From an uncultured bacterium (GTDB taxonomy: Bacteria; Planctomycetota; Phycisphaerae; Phycisphaerales; SM1A02), in the NCBI GenBank assembly GCA_903919715.1, contig CAIXJC010000001.1:1-64000 (forward strand): DNA of 64,000 bases, written 5' to 3'. The position numbers and the translations under genes are program-made. The notes under the pieces were generated by a model. It was not told where the DNA came from and did no database searches. It saw nothing but the letters and a program-made list of their open reading frames with translations. How positions within the stretch are numbered: the first letter of the stretch is position 1; every line of letters begins with the position of its first letter. This document shows, in pieces, positions 35,456-44,032 of this stretch.

Positions 35456-37684
35456 TCATCGTTCGATCGGTAGGGGATAGAGTGCGCCGCCGCCAGTCGC
35501 ACAAACGGGCTTCAATCGACCAGTGAATGCAGCGACGGCGGAGGGGGTGATCGCTGGATCAAGCCATCCCGATTTTCTCCAAACGCCGAGCATGGTTTCG
35601 TCGATCACAACATGGGTCCACCCGTCACGGCGCAGTTGCGCAATCGCAATTTCTGGATCGTTACCACACGACGCAATCGCTCGCGCAACTGGATTTTCGT
35701 TCCAAACAGTTGAGTATCCAGGAATCATCGGCCACCAGAAAACTGCCGAGCCACCGAGCGAGACAACGCGCGCACTTGGTGGCAGGCGATAGAGCGCTGC
35801 GGGCAAACCATCTCCGCCAATTTCGCCCGTAAAAAGTGGCTCGAGTCCGATCCCAGCTGCAGGAGTGCAGTGACCTTCGATCACAGGACCATCTGATGCA
35901 TATGCGAGCAGCGGCTGCATGCACCATGCCGCAAGAATGCTGCAAAGTGCGGCGCGTCCCAGCCATCCTGCACGTTCTAAGTTTGCCAAGACCAGAGCGA
36001 CAAGAACAGCCAACGGAATCGCGGTGGGAATCAAGAATCGTCCCTTTGCGTGGGTCAAGAGAAGCCAGAGAAGCACTTGCACGCTCGTGACGATCAACAG
36101 CGATGCTGCGATCGATCGTCTCTCTCGTCGAATGAGCAGGACGATGCCAGCAAGCACGCCCAACCAAGGCAAGATGGACCAGAACGGTCGCCAAGGTTCG
36201 GCATTTGGCGCAGTCAATTTCAACCCAGCAAAGAGATATTGATCGTGAAGCGCATTCCACCACTCGCTCACGGGTATCGATCCATGTGCCTGACGGAAGA
36301 TGTCCGCTTGGGCAGCAGTCAATCCACCATTTCCAATGATTGGAAAGAATGGGGAACTAGTTGTGATCATTCCGCGGAGCCACCAAGGTGAAAGGATGAC
36401 GACGCCAACGATCACAGCGGTCATCACGATGCGCACTGCGGATTTCGCAGGCAGCTGATTATTGCGAACCAAGTGAATGAGTTTCGCAATCGCTAAGAGT
36501 GCAACCGGCGCAGTCACGAATAGAGATGCAGTCAGTTTGGATCCCATCGCGGCGGCACAGAGCACTGCGAGTGCGGTGAACATTCCTCGTGATAGCCGAT
36601 CCGCAGTTTGCGCAAAGACCAGTGAGAGGGCAGCCGTCAACATCAGCAGCATCGGCATTTCGTCATACGCAAGTGATCCAGTCACAGTGATCCATGGCAG
36701 TCCAAGAAAAATCGCCGCTGCACACCAGCCGACAAGCGTGCGCACTCGTAGCGCCGTCGTAGGGGCGCGCCCATTTGCACCGCACATGTCAAAGCAGGTC
36801 CGTGCGAGGTCTGCGATCATCGCGGCAGTCACGAGCGTAAAGAGTCCGTGCAGGATTTGCGCATCCAAAGCGCCGGCATGGGCAGAACCGCGCATTGCCA
36901 TCACATGCAAATATGCGCACTCGACAAACGAAGGCAATGATGAATAAATATTGTGGGAAAGCGTTTGCACACGACCAAGCGCAAGCCACTCTCGTGGAAG
37001 TTGGAGGTGATACGAGAGCGCGTCATAGCCACCAAACTCGCTGGACCAGAGCCATCCCGGGGTCGTCACGGCGGCAAGAAGCAATGTGGCGATGGCCGGC
37101 GTAATCGTCCATGCCAGCCATAGTCCAGTTGTCGTTTTCTCACTCGCAGGTTGACTCGCCGATCTAAATTGGAAAGTTCGATTCGAATCGAAATTGCGTC
37201 CAAGTAGAAAAATCCCAGGCAACAGGAGAATCGCGGCAGGGATTTGGCCGCTACCGATTCCAAAGATCCCACTTCCAAAGAATCCAAGTGTTCCCGCAAC
37301 CGCATCAATGAAGAGCATCGCTGCACATCCAATGGAGAGCGAAACGGTGGAGCGCCGCTGGTCAAGTGCAAGAATTTTGACGAGCGCAAGTCCAAGTCCA
37401 AACGCCGACAGCATCCAAGCGATCGGTCCAGGAAGATGAATCAGAAAACGCAAGATCGCAGCAGTTGCGCGGGGCGATCCATCAATCGTCATCGAGCCGC
37501 CAATCCAAATCCAGAAGAGCAAGAGCGCTCCACCGACTATGGCGGCGATGCGTGTTGTCGTGCGCCTGCTCATGAATCCAGATGGAGGCAAGAAAAAATC
37601 CCGCATACTCGCACGAGGCGAATTGCGGGATAGGTTTCTCTTTGAGGCAAGGTCCTCAGGCTGACCCTGCGTTGGTCGGGTCAT
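35456..37684 (-). CDS. GT-C-type multi-pass membrane protein (ArnT/PMT-like)
   Basis: 742 residues from an ATG overlapping the rplT stop (ATGA); ATGs at 37606 and 37573 (MSRRTTTRIAAI) are plausible shorter starts. About 12 hydrophobic helices are visible. The first large loop contains GYDALSYHLQLPREWLALG, like the DxxxYHxP catalytic loop of PMT/ArnT-like glycosyltransferases. A soluble C-terminal region (about 640-742) lies outside the membrane. It probably transfers a sugar from a lipid carrier; donor and acceptor are unknown. Confidence 0.65.
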   Translation of the reverse strand: MTRPTQGQPEDLASKRNLSRNSPRASMRDFFLPPSGFMSRRTTTRIAAIVGGALLLFWIWIGGSMTIDGSPRATAAILRFLIHLPGPIAWMLSAFGLGLALVKILALDQRRSTVSLSIGCAAMLFIDAVAGTLGFFGSGIFGIGSGQIPAAILLLPGIFLLGRNFDSNRTFQFRSASQPASEKTTTGLWLAWTITPAIATLLLAAVTTPGWLWSSEFGGYDALSYHLQLPREWLALGRVQTLSHNIYSSLPSFVECAYLHVMAMRGSAHAGALDAQILHGLFTLVTAAMIADLARTCFDMCGANGRAPTTALRVRTLVGWCAAAIFLGLPWITVTGSLAYDEMPMLLMLTAALSLVFAQTADRLSRGMFTALAVLCAAAMGSKLTASLFVTAPVALLAIAKLIHLVRNNQLPAKSAVRIVMTAVIVGVVILSPWWLRGMITTSSPFFPIIGNGGLTAAQADIFRQAHGSIPVSEWWNALHDQYLFAGLKLTAPNAEPWRPFWSILPWLGVLAGIVLLIRRERRSIAASLLIVTSVQVLLWLLLTHAKGRFLIPTAIPLAVLVALVLANLERAGWLGRAALCSILAAWCMQPLLAYASDGPVIEGHCTPAAGIGLEPLFTGEIGGDGLPAALYRLPPSARVVSLGGSAVFWWPMIPGYSTVWNENPVARAIASCGNDPEIAIAQLRRDGWTHVVIDETMLGVWRKSGWLDPAITPSAVAAFTGRLKPVCATGGGALYPLPIER

Positions 37685-38061
37685 GCCGCCAAGACTTCAA
37701 CGTGTGGCTTGTGTGCTCCAGGCACATGAGCCGCAAGGCTGTCAAAGGTCATTGGGTCGTGAATCGCGATTTCGCTGAGCATCTTTCGATTCAACAGGAG
37801 TCCCGCATTGCTGAGGGCTGCGATGAATTGACTGTAACGAATGCCACGCATGCGGCACGCTGCAGTGATTCGGGTAATCCAGAGGCTTCGGAAGTCTCGG
37901 CGTCGAAGACGTCGATGAATCCACGCATTGCGTCCAGCGCGCATCAGCGCAACCTTGGCTTGTTGTTTTAGACGGCTCTTCGTTCCGAAATATCCACGCG
38001 CTTCGCGTAGTAATTTTCTTCGGGCTTGGGTGCGAGCTGCACCTTTACGTGCTCTTGGCAT
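37681..38061 (-). CDS. rplT: 50S ribosomal protein L20
   Basis: 126 residues starting MPRARKGAARTQARR, with the family core ARGYFGTKSRLKQQAKVALMRA-type segment and GIRYSQFIAALSNAGLLLNRKMLSEIAI. It binds 23S rRNA early in 50S assembly. It follows rpmI by 103 nt, which contain a GC-rich hairpin. Its stop overlaps the start of the GT-C membrane protein. Confidence 0.97.
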   Translation of the reverse strand: MPRARKGAARTQARRKLLREARGYFGTKSRLKQQAKVALMRAGRNAWIHRRLRRRDFRSLWITRITAACRMRGIRYSQFIAALSNAGLLLNRKMLSEIAIHDPMTFDSLAAHVPGAHKPHVEVLAA

Positions 38062-38118
38062 ACGAAACTCCCTGCAATGTCCGGAGTGTGCAGTCCTCTG
38101 GGTTTACGCTCGACGGGG

Positions 38119-38134
38119 CCGTCCACTTGGACGG
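38119..38134 (-). promoter_or_regulatory. Hairpin in the rpmI-rplT leader
   Basis: CCGTCC-ACTT-GGACGG forms a perfect 6-bp stem about 60 nt upstream of rplT in the rpmI-rplT spacer. L20 represses its own operon in several bacteria by binding leader RNA that mimics its rRNA site. Such a role here is a possibility only, because one short hairpin is not diagnostic. Confidence 0.3.
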
Positions 38135-38164
38135 GCTTTCGAACCCGGCGGGCAGTGCGAAAAA

Positions 38165-38428
38165 TCAAGCGCCTTCTGCGGCGGTGTCCTCACGTGCGAC
38201 TTTCGCCGCAGTGTGTTGTTGTTGAGATAGAAGCGAACGATTCAGCAGCTTGCCATACATCTTCGTATCGCCATTGCGCGCAAAGCGAGCTTTGCGATAC
38301 GTCTGCACGGTTGTCCCGCGCTTGTTGCTCTTGAGATGTCGACTGTTTGGACCGAAGAACCGAACCTTACCGGTCTTGGTTACTTTGATCCGCTTGGCTA
38401 AACCTTTGTGTGTCTTTTGCTTTGGCAT
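38165..38428 (-). CDS. rpmI: 50S ribosomal protein L35 with C-terminal extension
   Basis: 87 residues: MPKQKTHKGLAKRIKVTKTGK is the L35 N-terminus, followed by HLKSNKRGTTVQTYRKA. L35 is normally about 65 residues. The extra tail (about 66-87, QQQHTAAKVAREDTAAEGA) is Ala/Glu-rich. The usual upstream neighbour infC is not present. Confidence 0.95.
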   Translation of the reverse strand: MPKQKTHKGLAKRIKVTKTGKVRFFGPNSRHLKSNKRGTTVQTYRKARFARNGDTKMYGKLLNRSLLSQQQHTAAKVAREDTAAEGA

Positions 38429-38503
38429 ATGGAACCATTCGTTGGGTCGAGAAGAGTACAGGAGATGTTGGGATTCCGCAACAACCTATTCGGTAGAAAC
38501 AGG

Positions 38504-39439
38504 TCAGTTTGCGAGCAGGATCTCGAGCGCACTGCCAGAACGCGCCCTTACGTTGATGGATTCCCTGCCATTTTTCTCTCGAATGACCCAGAAATTATCC
38601 GGCAAACCCATTGGGCCGCCGAGTCGAATCGCGGAAATCATCCAGACCACGGAACCGTCTGAAAAAAGGATGTTTTGGCCACGTTGTCCGTGATTTTGCG
38701 AGACGATGTCAAATGAAGTTGGCATTATTCCGCGGCGGACAAGGGCCTGGACGGGATTCGAGTCCGCAGCGACCGGACTGCGCTGCATTGTCGAAAGGTT
38801 GGTTTGCGACTTGTGCAGTGGGATCCGATAAGACAAATTCCTTGATCCGTTGCACCGAGTGCACTTTGAATCGCAGTAGCCATTCTTGGACAGCATGTCC
38901 AGATGCCGAGCGTTGTCTGTGATGTCACTATCGTTGGATGACGGTTCACTCAAAAAGGACCCGAGCCCTGCGGTCATCGGCATGATTCCGCGGTTGTCCG
39001 CCGCATAAGCCGAGAGACCACTGCCAAGCGTTCGAAGTCCGTTGGCGCACATCACCTGAGACTGACTCTGTCGAACTTGATTCGACAGGGGAACGGCGAC
39101 TCCTGCGGCAATGATCAGCATTGCCGCAAGTGCGACAATATTTGGAATTCCCATTCGGCGTCGCATCGATGATGGTTGAGAATTGAAGAAACTCATCCGC
39201 TGTGATTGGCGTCGTTCGCTTTGTGCAATGCGAGCAAGCGTCGCATCGATCAGCGCATCACTCGGCGGTGTGACTGGATAGACATTGATTTCACGAAGCT
39301 CGCCAAGAATTCGCCGCGCGCTTGGTCGCAGACGCTCAGGCATTCGATTGATTGCAGAGGGATCAAATTCCGCTGCGATAAGGAAGTCGAGAGCGGCTGC
39401 CTCGACTGGATCGATATTTGTTTCTTCCGATTGGTTCAT
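38504..39439 (-). CDS. Anti-sigma-like membrane protein with pseudopilin-type periplasmic region
   Basis: 311 residues. A cytoplasmic helical N-terminus (about 1-95) is followed by one transmembrane helix (about 99-117). The part after it looks like a planctomycete pseudopilin: CANGLRTLGSGLSAYAADNR (131-150), then a variant H-X10-DG motif (H250, DG 261-262, HGQRGQNILFSDGSVVW). Three cysteines (189, 193, 196) form CDSKCTRC. It overlaps the ECF sigma gene by 4 bp, the usual layout for a sigma/anti-sigma pair. It probably holds or releases the sigma factor in response to an envelope signal; this is inferred from context. Confidence 0.6.
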   Translation of the reverse strand: MNQSEETNIDPVEAAALDFLIAAEFDPSAINRMPERLRPSARRILGELREINVYPVTPPSDALIDATLARIAQSERRQSQRMSFFNSQPSSMRRRMGIPNIVALAAMLIIAAGVAVPLSNQVRQSQSQVMCANGLRTLGSGLSAYAADNRGIMPMTAGLGSFLSEPSSNDSDITDNARHLDMLSKNGYCDSKCTRCNGSRNLSYRIPLHKSQTNLSTMQRSPVAADSNPVQALVRRGIMPTSFDIVSQNHGQRGQNILFSDGSVVWMISAIRLGGPMGLPDNFWVIREKNGRESINVRARSGSALEILLAN

Positions 39440-40062
39440 TCGTTCTCGCCTTCGCCCGTGTGATCTTTATTTGCTTTGCGCCAACGTGTCGAAAAGAGCG
39501 CAACAGCTGCGTGCAGTCTGCTCTTCACAGTTCCCAGCGGAATCCCGAGCACATCTGCAACTTGCTGATAGCTCATTCGCTGAAAATATCCGAGCAGGAT
39601 GACTTCTCGATGATGGTCTGGCAATCCGTCGAGCACGCGCTTCACCAGTGCTTGTTGGTCGGCAATTTCGCTCGGTTGGTCTGGTTTCGCCTGATCAGAT
39701 TCCAACATGTCCAACAAATTCGCACCATCTATATTTCTACCGATCGGCGCATCGAGACTTGCCATTGTGCGACGCTTACGCTTGCGATGAAAGTCTCGGG
39801 CCTTGTTTGCAGCGATGGTGTAGAGCCACGGCTTGAAGTTCCTCGTTTGGTCGAAGGTTGCTCCAGAGATGTGAATTTGAAGAAACGTGTCTTGAAAGAC
39901 ATCTTCAGCGGCCGTTGGAGATCCAAGAAATCTCGCGAGGAAGCCATGGAGTTCATTTCGATATCGCTGAAGCAGTGCTGGGAACGCATCAACATCGCCC
40001 TCCAGGTGGGACCGAAGAAGCGATTCATCACTGCGAACATCCTCCTGGCCAGTCGCCATCAT
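39436..40062 (-). CDS. ECF-type RNA polymerase sigma factor
   Basis: 208 residues from the tandem ATG at 40062/40059; a longer frame upstream has no support. Region 2 is AEDVFQDTFLQIH and FKPWLYTIAANKARDFHRKRKRR. Region 4 is GLPDHHREVILLGYFQRMSYQQVADVLGI followed by PLGTVKSRLHAA. It redirects RNA polymerase to a specific promoter set. It is co-translated with the downstream membrane protein (4-bp overlap), its likely regulator. A 229-bp spacer separates it from divergent hpnH. Confidence 0.9.
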   Translation of the reverse strand: MMATGQEDVRSDESLLRSHLEGDVDAFPALLQRYRNELHGFLARFLGSPTAAEDVFQDTFLQIHISGATFDQTRNFKPWLYTIAANKARDFHRKRKRRTMASLDAPIGRNIDGANLLDMLESDQAKPDQPSEIADQQALVKRVLDGLPDHHREVILLGYFQRMSYQQVADVLGIPLGTVKSRLHAAVALFSTRWRKANKDHTGEGENE

Positions 40063-40291
40063 GGTTGGGAAGGTACTCGACCAATCTGGACTAGTGATTG
40101 GATTTATCAGTCTCTTCTTTTGGCGTCGTTGGGAGATCGGGGCAGGTGTCGTCTCCAACGCATTCAAGAGGATCTCGACGAGAGTTTCAGGCAAGCTCTT
40201 CGTCAAGTCGCACTGAGCATTTGAAGTGACTCCACAAATCGTCATCCGCGTGCTACGATCAATATCTCGCATCAGTTCGGAGCTTTTTCAC

Positions 40292-41452
40292 ATGCCAGTA
40301 CCAATCAGTCAGATGTGGACAGTCGCAAGTTACGTCCTCGGGCAGAAGCTCCGAGGGCGTCGGAGATATCCACTGGTCTTGATGCTTGAACCGCTTTTGC
40401 GCTGCAATTTGGCGTGTGCGGGTTGTGGCAAGATCCAATATCCAGCTCATATTCTCAAGCGTGATCTTTCCGTTGCAGAATGCATGAAGGCCGTTGACGA
40501 ATGCGGAGCTCCGATGGTGTCGATCCCTGGAGGCGAACCGCTCCTTCATCCGCAGATTTCGGAAATCGTTCGTGAATTGGTCAGGCGACGGAAATACATC
40601 TATCTCTGCACAAATGCGCTTCTTTTGAAGGAAAAATTGGAGGCTGGTTGGTTCGAGCCAAGCAAGTATCTGACATTCAGCGTTCACATGGACGGCGTCG
40701 AAGAGCACCATGACTTTGCGGTCTGTCGCGAAGGAACATTTCAAAAGGCGATCGAAGGAATCCGCATGGCAGTCGACCGTGGATTCCGTGTCACCACGAA
40801 TACGACCCTCTTCGAAGGTGCCGATCCAAACGCCGTACGGGAATTCTTTGATCAGATGATGGATCTTGGTGTTGAGGGAATGATGGTGAGCCCGGGATAC
40901 GCATATGACAAGGCTCCCGACCAGAAGAGTTTTCTTAAGCGCCAGAAGACGCACGAGCTCTTTCAGATGGTTCTGTCGAATCGACGGGATGGTCGAAATC
41001 GCTGGCGGTTCAATCAATCAGCGCTGTTTTTAGAATTTCTTATGGGAAAGCGTTCCTTCGAATGCACCCCATGGGGAAACCCGACTTTCAACCTGTTTGG
41101 CTGGCAGAAACCGTGCTATCTATTGAATGAGGGGTACGTTGATACGTTCGCACAACTCATGGAAGAAACCGAATGGGAGCGTTACGGTCGCGCCTCGGGG
41201 AATTCCAAGTGTCAGAATTGCATGGTGCACTGCGGACACGAACCGACTGCTGTGGATTACACATTCTCTGGCGTTCCTGGTCTCTGGGCGACTGTCAAGG
41301 CAATGGTCTTTAGTACCTATGCGAATCCACAAGCCAAGCAAGCGCTGAAAGAAGAAGCAAAGACCTCCCACGGTCCTCGGGCGCATCTGGTGCAACTTGG
41401 TCTTGCGACTGATGTCGCTGTGGGTGCGGGTGCATCCTCCGACGCGCACTAA
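40292..41452 (+). CDS. hpnH: HpnH: adenosyl-hopene transferase (radical SAM)
   Basis: 386 residues from the ATG at 40292 (MPVPISQMWTVASYVL), with CGGAG about 9 nt upstream; an earlier ATG at 40226 lacks support. The radical SAM cluster motif is CNLACAGC (C38, C42, C45). PGGEPLLHPQI and TNALLLKEKL follow the HpnH pattern, and the C-terminus has a second cysteine group (CQNCMVHCGHEPTAVD). HpnH adds the 5'-deoxyadenosyl radical to diploptene, starting C35 hopanoid side-chain synthesis. No squalene-hopene cyclase or other hpn gene is in the window. Confidence 0.9.
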   Translation: MPVPISQMWTVASYVLGQKLRGRRRYPLVLMLEPLLRCNLACAGCGKIQYPAHILKRDLSVAECMKAVDECGAPMVSIPGGEPLLHPQISEIVRELVRRRKYIYLCTNALLLKEKLEAGWFEPSKYLTFSVHMDGVEEHHDFAVCREGTFQKAIEGIRMAVDRGFRVTTNTTLFEGADPNAVREFFDQMMDLGVEGMMVSPGYAYDKAPDQKSFLKRQKTHELFQMVLSNRRDGRNRWRFNQSALFLEFLMGKRSFECTPWGNPTFNLFGWQKPCYLLNEGYVDTFAQLMEETEWERYGRASGNSKCQNCMVHCGHEPTAVDYTFSGVPGLWATVKAMVFSTYANPQAKQALKEEAKTSHGPRAHLVQLGLATDVAVGAGASSDAH

Positions 41453-42412: not shown

Positions 42413-42478
42413 TTTTGCCTTTTGGAAATGCAATGCTAGGGTAAGGGTGTGAGGAGTGACTGTTTAGGAAAATATCGA

Positions 42479-44032
42479 ATGAGTTTCCTGCGAATGTCCG
42501 TTGGGACGGCTGTTGTATTGGCTTTGGCAACAGGCGCCTTTGCCGATGAGATCGGCTATGACGCGCTCGTTGCGAGATTGAGCGGGCAGGCGATCCCAAA
42601 TGGTGCAGGGATTCGGATTGGTCAAGTTGAAGCGTCTGTTGATGGAACAAATCCGTTGGTGTACGGACCAGACCAATCAGCAAGCGAATTTTCAGGGAAG
42701 GCTTTCTTCGCGCAGAGCGGAGTGCCAGCGGTCAGTTGGCATGCGAATACGGTCGCGCAATACATGTATTCGAATGTTGGGAGTATCGCTCCTGGAGTGA
42801 ATCAACTTTATCTTTGGGAGGTCAATAGTTTCCTCACAGGAACGTTGAAGTATGGACAAGGTTCGACTGTGGCGCCAGCGCTACCAGTATCGACTGCGCT
42901 CAAAATTTATAATCACAGTTGGATCGGTGGATTCTCTGGCTCGACTCCAACAGCTGCCGACAATGAGGTCCTTCGACGCGCGGATTTCGCGATGAATCGT
43001 GACGACACGCTGTATGCGGTCGGTATGAATAATGGTGCGACTGCTCCGACATATCCAATGATGGCGATGGGATTTCATGGACTTTCCGTCGGGCGCATGG
43101 ATGGTGATCATTCGCACGGAGATGTCCCAGCTGGAGCGGATGGCGTCGGTCGAATGAAGCCTGACATCGTTGCGCCAGCAAACGCAACAAGTTGGTCGAC
43201 GGCAGTTGTCAGTTCCGTGGCGGCACTGCTGTTCCAGACGGCTGCGACCGATCCAAGTGTTTCGTTCAACACAAATTCGGATGAGACAACAGTGGTCAAG
43301 GCAGTGATGATGGCAGGCGCACGACACAGAACTGGTTGGACGAATAATCCTGCGACGAGTGGTCCAAGTCGTGGGCTCACTCTCAAGCCTCTCGACGCAA
43401 TTTACGGCGTGGATGTTGTGAATGTCGATCGAAGCCATCGCATCTTAACTGGCGGAGAGCACGACGGTTTCGCCACTGCCGCATCCGCACCCATTTCTCC
43501 ACCAGCAGCGTGGGACTTCGAGGCAATTCCATTTGGAGCGACGAGATATTGGCGAATTCGTTCGACGCAGGCAATCCCCGAACTCTCAGTGATTGCAACA
43601 TGGAATCGAACTGCAACCACGGCCGTCGCGCTCCCAGTGATGGCTGATATGAACCTCACTTTGTTCCGTATCGACAGTGCTGGCACACTGATTTCGCTCG
43701 AAGGCGACGCTGGCGCAGCATATTTTTCTGGCGGAAACGTTGCGAGCCGTTCGACCGTCGACAATGTTGAACACCTCTATGTGACGGGCCTTGCTGCAGG
43801 CGACTATGTGATTGAGGCAAAGCGCACCGGGATTGCAACGACTGCCGCACCATTTGCCGTGGCGTGGATCATGGCGCCAATGTCTGGTGATCTCAATCAA
43901 GATGGACGAGTGGACGGACTTGATTTAGCGGCTGTCCTCAGCGGTTGGGGCGGGAGCACGGTCGGCGACGTGAATGGTGATGGCGTTGTTGACGGTATTG
44001 ATCTCGCCGCACTTCTTTCCAACTGGGGATAA
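42479..44032 (+). CDS. Secreted divergent subtilisin-like (S8) protein with dockerin-like tag
   Basis: 517 residues from the ATG at 42479; signal peptide ends near TGAFADE. Subtilase-like segments: GAGIRIGQVEASVDG where the catalytic Asp would be (Glu here), SWHANTVAQYM for His, IYNHSWIGG for the oxyanion region, and MKPDIVAPANATSWSTAVVS for the Ser loop. A beta-rich region (about 330-465) precedes a dockerin-like module (GDLNQDGRVDGLDLAAVL, GDVNGDGVVDGIDLAALL) ending in NWG. Activity is uncertain because of the Asp-to-Glu change. It has the same tag family as the proteins at 16052 and 18620. Confidence 0.65.
   Translation: MSFLRMSVGTAVVLALATGAFADEIGYDALVARLSGQAIPNGAGIRIGQVEASVDGTNPLVYGPDQSASEFSGKAFFAQSGVPAVSWHANTVAQYMYSNVGSIAPGVNQLYLWEVNSFLTGTLKYGQGSTVAPALPVSTALKIYNHSWIGGFSGSTPTAADNEVLRRADFAMNRDDTLYAVGMNNGATAPTYPMMAMGFHGLSVGRMDGDHSHGDVPAGADGVGRMKPDIVAPANATSWSTAVVSSVAALLFQTAATDPSVSFNTNSDETTVVKAVMMAGARHRTGWTNNPATSGPSRGLTLKPLDAIYGVDVVNVDRSHRILTGGEHDGFATAASAPISPPAAWDFEAIPFGATRYWRIRSTQAIPELSVIATWNRTATTAVALPVMADMNLTLFRIDSAGTLISLEGDAGAAYFSGGNVASRSTVDNVEHLYVTGLAAGDYVIEAKRTGIATTAAPFAVAWIMAPMSGDLNQDGRVDGLDLAAVLSGWGGSTVGDVNGDGVVDGIDLAALLSNWG

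Follow-up and report, generated by a model that had tools for sequence, protein, structure and literature searches.

An ECF sigma factor gene in planctomycetes is paired with a candidate membrane anti-sigma factor whose outer half is a pseudopilin module

The window, meaning the whole 64,000-nucleotide stretch of DNA analysed here, contains an extracytoplasmic-function (ECF) sigma factor gene and, directly 3' of it, a gene for a membrane protein that we call its partner. The features of the locus are as follows.

39436..40062, minus strand: ECF sigma factor gene, 208 aa, with Sigma70_r2, Sigma70_r4_2 and TIGR02937 matches
38504..39439, minus strand: candidate membrane anti-sigma factor (the partner), 311 aa, named for its ECF linkage across homologues
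39191..39418, minus strand: four-helix N-domain on the cytoplasmic side (partner residues 8-83), presumed to bind sigma, from AlphaFold, conservation and duplication
38507..39154, minus strand: partner residues 96-311, pseudopilin module, from hhalign, type IV pilin fold and DUF1559/HX9DG matches
38996..39154, minus strand: partner residues 96-148, pilin alpha-1 helix, from the model and alignment
40251..40278, minus strand: predicted ECF-type promoter GAAC-N16-TCGTAGCA, with GAAC-N16-TCGTA kept across the genus
40292..41452, plus strand: hpnH, divergent neighbour in conserved context (TIGR03470, 536 bits)
37681..38428, minus strand: rpmI (38163-38428) and rplT (37681-38061), downstream in conserved context (TIGR01032, TIGR00001)

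The product of 39436-40062 is an ECF sigma factor. It is about 200 residues long, contains only sigma-70 regions 2 and 4, and exceeds the curated cut-offs of Sigma70_r2 (64.2 bits), Sigma70_r4_2 (47.2 bits) and TIGR02937 (97.3 bits); its start was set at MMATGQ, and longer in-frame starts are present. The partner gene shares 4 bp with it, and the original prediction of an ECF sigma factor with a membrane partner is confirmed. Such adjacency to the cognate ECF gene, usually with overlap, is also the arrangement of class I anti-sigma factor genes. On either side of the pair, about 13 nt separate the end of the predicted ECF promoter from the start of hpnH, and 75 nt the partner stop codon from the start of rpmI on the same strand. 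Further along the window, 42449-44032 encodes a subtilase-like secreted protein with two dockerin-like repeats at its C-terminus (GDLNQDGRVDGLDLAAVLSGWG).

Of 181 genomes in the family, 171 yielded a homologue of the partner, and among the good-quality ones 103 of 104 did; the window's genome has a single copy. The family profile matches all 400 of the 400 genomes sampled from the order, where weak matches may be other pilins, and in a phylum-wide search the long form beside an ECF gene was confined to the class. Surveying ECF neighbours for the same fusion, as had been proposed, we found that 184 of the 190 homologues read have an ECF gene immediately upstream in the same orientation; at least four of the remaining six lie at contig ends. 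Positions 37681-41452 of the window show the order hpnH (divergent), ECF, partner, rpmI, rplT, which recurs in most loci read. Wherever hpnH was found it is divergent (117 loci, of 167 with some flank), and wherever rplT was found it lies downstream in the same orientation as the pair (141 loci, of 166 with some flank). Judged by sequence comparison, the hpnH / ECF / partner / rpmI-rplT locus is ancestral and vertically inherited.

The sequence GAACTGATGCGAGATATTGATCGTAGCA lies on the minus strand at 40251-40278, some 190 nt before the ECF start. ECF promoters usually take the form of GAAC and CGTA at such spacing. GAAC-N16-TCGTA occurs upstream of the pair, with exact -35/-10 spacing, in 19 of 19 genomes of the genus; the exact form GAAC-N16-TCGTAGCA is present once in the window's genome and stands at the pair in 18 genomes, the nineteenth having TCGTATCA. 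A conserved ECF-type promoter ahead of the operon implies that the ECF/partner operon is autoregulated via this predicted promoter. Outside the genus the -35 element varies, often giving GATCC-N15-TCGTAGCA forms, and many loci match none of the patterns used. A regulon search of the window's genome, allowing two mismatches, showed no enrichment (105 motif sites versus 123 for the reversed control), and the two other GAAC-N16-TCGTA sites in that genome have no clear target gene. Genome G000 contains GAAC-N16-TCGTA three times versus 18 for the reversed control, a control that differs in dinucleotides; the low count perhaps reflects avoidance of stray ECF promoters. Separately, many genomes in the genus strongly conserve a short element, GTAC(C/T)TT, right before the ECF start codon (40063-40078); it may be the -10 box of a leaderless transcript.

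The partner is a single-pass membrane protein in which a cytoplasmic N-domain is followed by a complete type IV pilin or pseudopilin module (residues ~96-311), comprising a membrane-spanning alpha-1, Cys131, Cys189/193/196, D226xNP, H250-X10-D261G and D281NxW. The string CANGLRTLGSGLSAYAADNR and the HX10DG motif, which had first suggested a pseudopilin, were both located, at residues 131-150 and at H250-X10-D261-G262, and they are not chance resemblances because P117 (47/48), H250 (46/48), D261 (46/48) and W284 (42/48) are kept across 48 diverse members of the family. The proposed division into residues 1-95 inside, ~97-118 in the membrane and 118-311 outside agrees with the model in all but one point: the pilin module begins at ~96, because the membrane helix is the pilin's own alpha-1 helix.

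We found that a family profile built from the 48 members retrieves free prepilins of ~225 aa in other families of the phylum (profile positions 83-290, E ~1e-26). These begin with a classic prepilin leader, GFTLIELLVVIAIIGILAGILLP (GFTLIE type), exceed the DUF1559 and N_methyl cut-offs, and also match GspG-type models. Aligned to the free pseudopilins of the phylum with hhalign, the outer domain gave a probability of 99.8% and an E of 2.4e-27 over 170 columns, in register from alpha-1 to HX10DG and DNIW and spanning CxxNL, the CP motif and NHxxxGQNVLFxDG; the N-domain gave no hhalign match to the same free pilins. A single-sequence Pfam search with the window partner matched no family, DUF1559 being seen only at family level: taken singly, 14 of the 48 members match PF07596, and the TIGR04294 (HX9DG) cut-off is exceeded by two class-level relatives. 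The AlphaFold model of the partner (pLDDT 87) shows a helix of 50 residues leading into a beta domain. In a fold search with this model, the best six solved structures were all type IV pilins, headed by PilA4 (6xxd; Z 6.3, rmsd 3.1, 115 aligned), which aligned over its residues 1-125, from pilin residue 1. A profile search of solved sequences yielded seven chains, every one a pilin or GspG, with most alignments beginning at residue 5 of the chain, in the corresponding column. The module therefore shows the pilin fold, in which an alpha-beta loop and a beta domain come after a long alpha-1, as well as homology to known prepilins. These profile and structure searches demonstrate the originally suggested kinship of the outer half with planctomycete pseudopilins, and the homology extends along its entire length. 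When 63 fused and 15 free domains were placed in one tree, a single branch (support 100/97) separated the fused from the free, consistent with one fusion event having given rise to the partner family, although this falls short of proving a single origin. Genome G000 (C56:14543-24372, loci L146-L150) also carries a cluster of five DUF1559-like prepilin genes, four of which are consecutive.

Compared with a prepilin, the module is altered exactly where processing would occur. If the near-invariant P117 is equated with residue 22 of a pilin, residue 1 falls on M96 and the Glu5 position on N100; across the 48 members, position 5 is Asp in 32, Asn in 14 and Glu in two. The residue before position 1 is Arg in 34/48 and Gly in 4/48, the Gly cases being without a prepilin leader, and neither a GFxxxE leader nor a GF motif was present in the 48 aligned members. 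Pilins carry a leader ending in Gly(-1) ahead of residue 1, and the partner has none; with position -1 also altered, the module is without a normal prepilin peptidase site. The N-domain occupies the place of the leader, and topology is as in a prepilin, with the leader side in and the globular side out. Because the leader has been lost, the partner cannot be a normally processed subunit, and its absence argues against simple incorporation of the partner into a fibre.

Residues 8-83 of the partner are modelled as four helices with a loop ahead of the fourth (AlphaFold pLDDT 91.5). This layout is the general plan of class I anti-sigma domains, in which helix 1 contacts sigma-4 and helix 4 contacts sigma-2 (PMC7406223). 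D18, L20, P55, T67 and A69 are near-invariant, D18 in helix 1 being kept in 47/48 members. The N-domain occurs twice in homologue L047, clearly, and apparently also in L138, as a second profile match, and therefore behaves as a discrete module. The expectation that profile and structure searches of the N-terminal part would recover a known sigma-binding fold was not borne out: a profile search of the sequences of solved structures recovered no anti-sigma domain, fold searches of solved structures with the N-domain alone gave none among the matches listed, and a Pfam search of the family for anti-sigma domains had no match. The anti-sigma model NF052375 weakly matches the window partner (residues 55-129) and 21/48 members (best E 2.5e-6), scoring below its curated 100-bit cut-off and overlapping the membrane helix. 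We also compared couplings in 184 ECF/partner pairs with those in shuffled pairings. With 20 letters, 14 of the top 30 couplings fell in the expected blocks versus 8.2 (maximum 14) in shuffles, and with a reduced alphabet 7 of the top 30 did so versus 6.9. The couplings were not clearly above those of shuffled pairings, and we place no weight on them, since shuffles equal the value of the top pair (I51-L144, z 8.8) and the block pattern disappears with the reduced alphabet.

With no solved anti-sigma domain recovered, NF052375 below its cut-off and coevolution not clearly above shuffles, it is gene order, topology and regulation that carry the case for an anti-sigma role. The claim that the partner is an anti-sigma factor is accordingly supported by its position, topology and promoter logic but not by the N-domain searches for a known sigma-binding fold; taken together, the genomic evidence strongly implies that the partner, as a candidate, acts as an anti-sigma factor.

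We consider it probable that the locus encodes an autoregulated pair of ECF sigma factor and membrane anti-sigma factor with a domesticated pseudopilin as its sensor half; a subunit of surface fibres seems to have been taken into service as the sensor in a transcription switch. The cytoplasmic four-helix domain would hold the sigma factor at the membrane until a change in the outer domain, be it a ligand, damage, a shift in the redox or metal state of the cysteine cluster, or an encounter with other pilins, triggered release. The anti-sigma factor would then be cleaved or conformationally released, most simply by regulated intramembrane proteolysis, and the freed sigma factor would transcribe its own operon and a target set that is probably small. 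With an M50 site-2-type protease, several secretion/pilus ATPases and a prepilin peptidase in the window's genome, which also has DUF1559-type pilins, proteolytic release and pilus-linked sensing are both possible. The partner's own neighbours, hpnH and the ribosomal protein genes, do not point to pili.

What the outer domain detects can be read in more than one way. It could be a redox or metal sensor in which C131, C189, C193 (or His) and C196 build a metal site or disulphide bonds, the state of these governs sigma release, and the pilin fold is no more than a scaffold. C131, C189 and C196 occur together in 39/48 members, position 193 being Cys or another residue, mostly His, while 5/48 members have none of the four; the cysteines are thus gained or lost jointly, and free pilins have only the C131 and C196 equivalents. 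However, the set could consist purely of structural disulphides, and cysteines are missing from some relatives, so we hold this reading to be tentative and on the doubtful side. We are similarly hesitant about a second reading, in which the uncleaved module would report on the dynamics of a pseudopilus or type IV pilus: it would pack against mature pilins in the membrane via alpha-1, and the size of the pilin pool or fibre growth would alter its hold on the sigma factor. Position 5 is Asp, Asn or Glu in 48/48 aligned members and position 22 is proline in 47/48, several deeper relatives, inspected by eye, retain Glu at position 5, and the genome has the pilus machinery named above; however, a module with no cleavage site has no free N-terminus, Asp or Asn at a helix start is also a common helix cap, and the gene adjoins hpnH and rpmI-rplT rather than pilus genes. 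An unprocessed pilin fused to an anti-sigma domain might even serve as a stationary probe of the membrane pool that passes assembly state to transcription through an autoregulated, order-wide ECF factor. We judge this unlikely; if true, (pseudo)pilus assembly state would be read directly into transcription.

The partner might instead be no anti-sigma factor but a pilin-like membrane protein that is not cleaved, has an unrelated N-domain and is merely co-operonic with the sigma gene. The N-domain's failure to match solved anti-sigma domains and a coupling signal not clearly above shuffles favour this, but near-universal ECF linkage, correct topology, the NF052375 matches and the ECF-type promoter ahead of the pair make it improbable. 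That the pilin resemblance is chance, a matter of one membrane helix and two short motifs, fits the absence of a Pfam pilin match for the window protein alone and is ruled out by the full-length hhalign match, the pilin fold, the solved-sequence matches to type IV pilins and conservation in 48 members.

Anti-sigma sensor domains set what a bacterium can perceive. The signal of the proposed sigma/anti-sigma pair is likely core for these bacteria because the pair is single-copy in the window's genome, near-universal in the family, old and, as far as sequence comparison indicates, vertically inherited. The literature searched contains no description of a pilin fused as an anti-sigma sensor, many subscription papers and two planctomycete surveys lying outside that scope. 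The pair would represent a case of a secreted-fibre subunit turned regulator, and it offers a testable way into the many planctomycete DUF1559 proteins.

Among the closest known systems are the planctomycete DUF1559 / H-X9-DG pseudopilins (PF07596, TIGR04294, PF07963 leader), with which the outer half shares the long alpha-1 with P22 and CxxNL and the globular motifs CPxx, SY, AD, NHxxxGQNVLFxDGxVxW and DNIW. Unlike them, the partner is without a GFTLIE leader or cleavage site and carries a cytoplasmic, presumably regulatory, domain in the leader's place, has X10 rather than X9 ahead of DG, and bears additional cysteines. Type IV pilins and GspG (PilA4 6xxd, geopilin, PilE1) have the same fold in the same register from pilin residue 1, whereas the partner is not processable as a normal prepilin and is fused to a presumed anti-sigma domain. 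Compared with membrane-bound class I anti-sigma factors of the RseA, RskA and RsiW type, the partner has an N-domain in which the searches recognised no solved anti-sigma domain, with no zinc motif, and a pseudopilin as its outer domain. In common with them, it has a gene directly 3' of the ECF gene, a small helical cytoplasmic N-domain with the fourth helix past a linker (predicted for the partner), one membrane helix with an exoplasmic C-terminal domain, and an ECF-type promoter before the operon.
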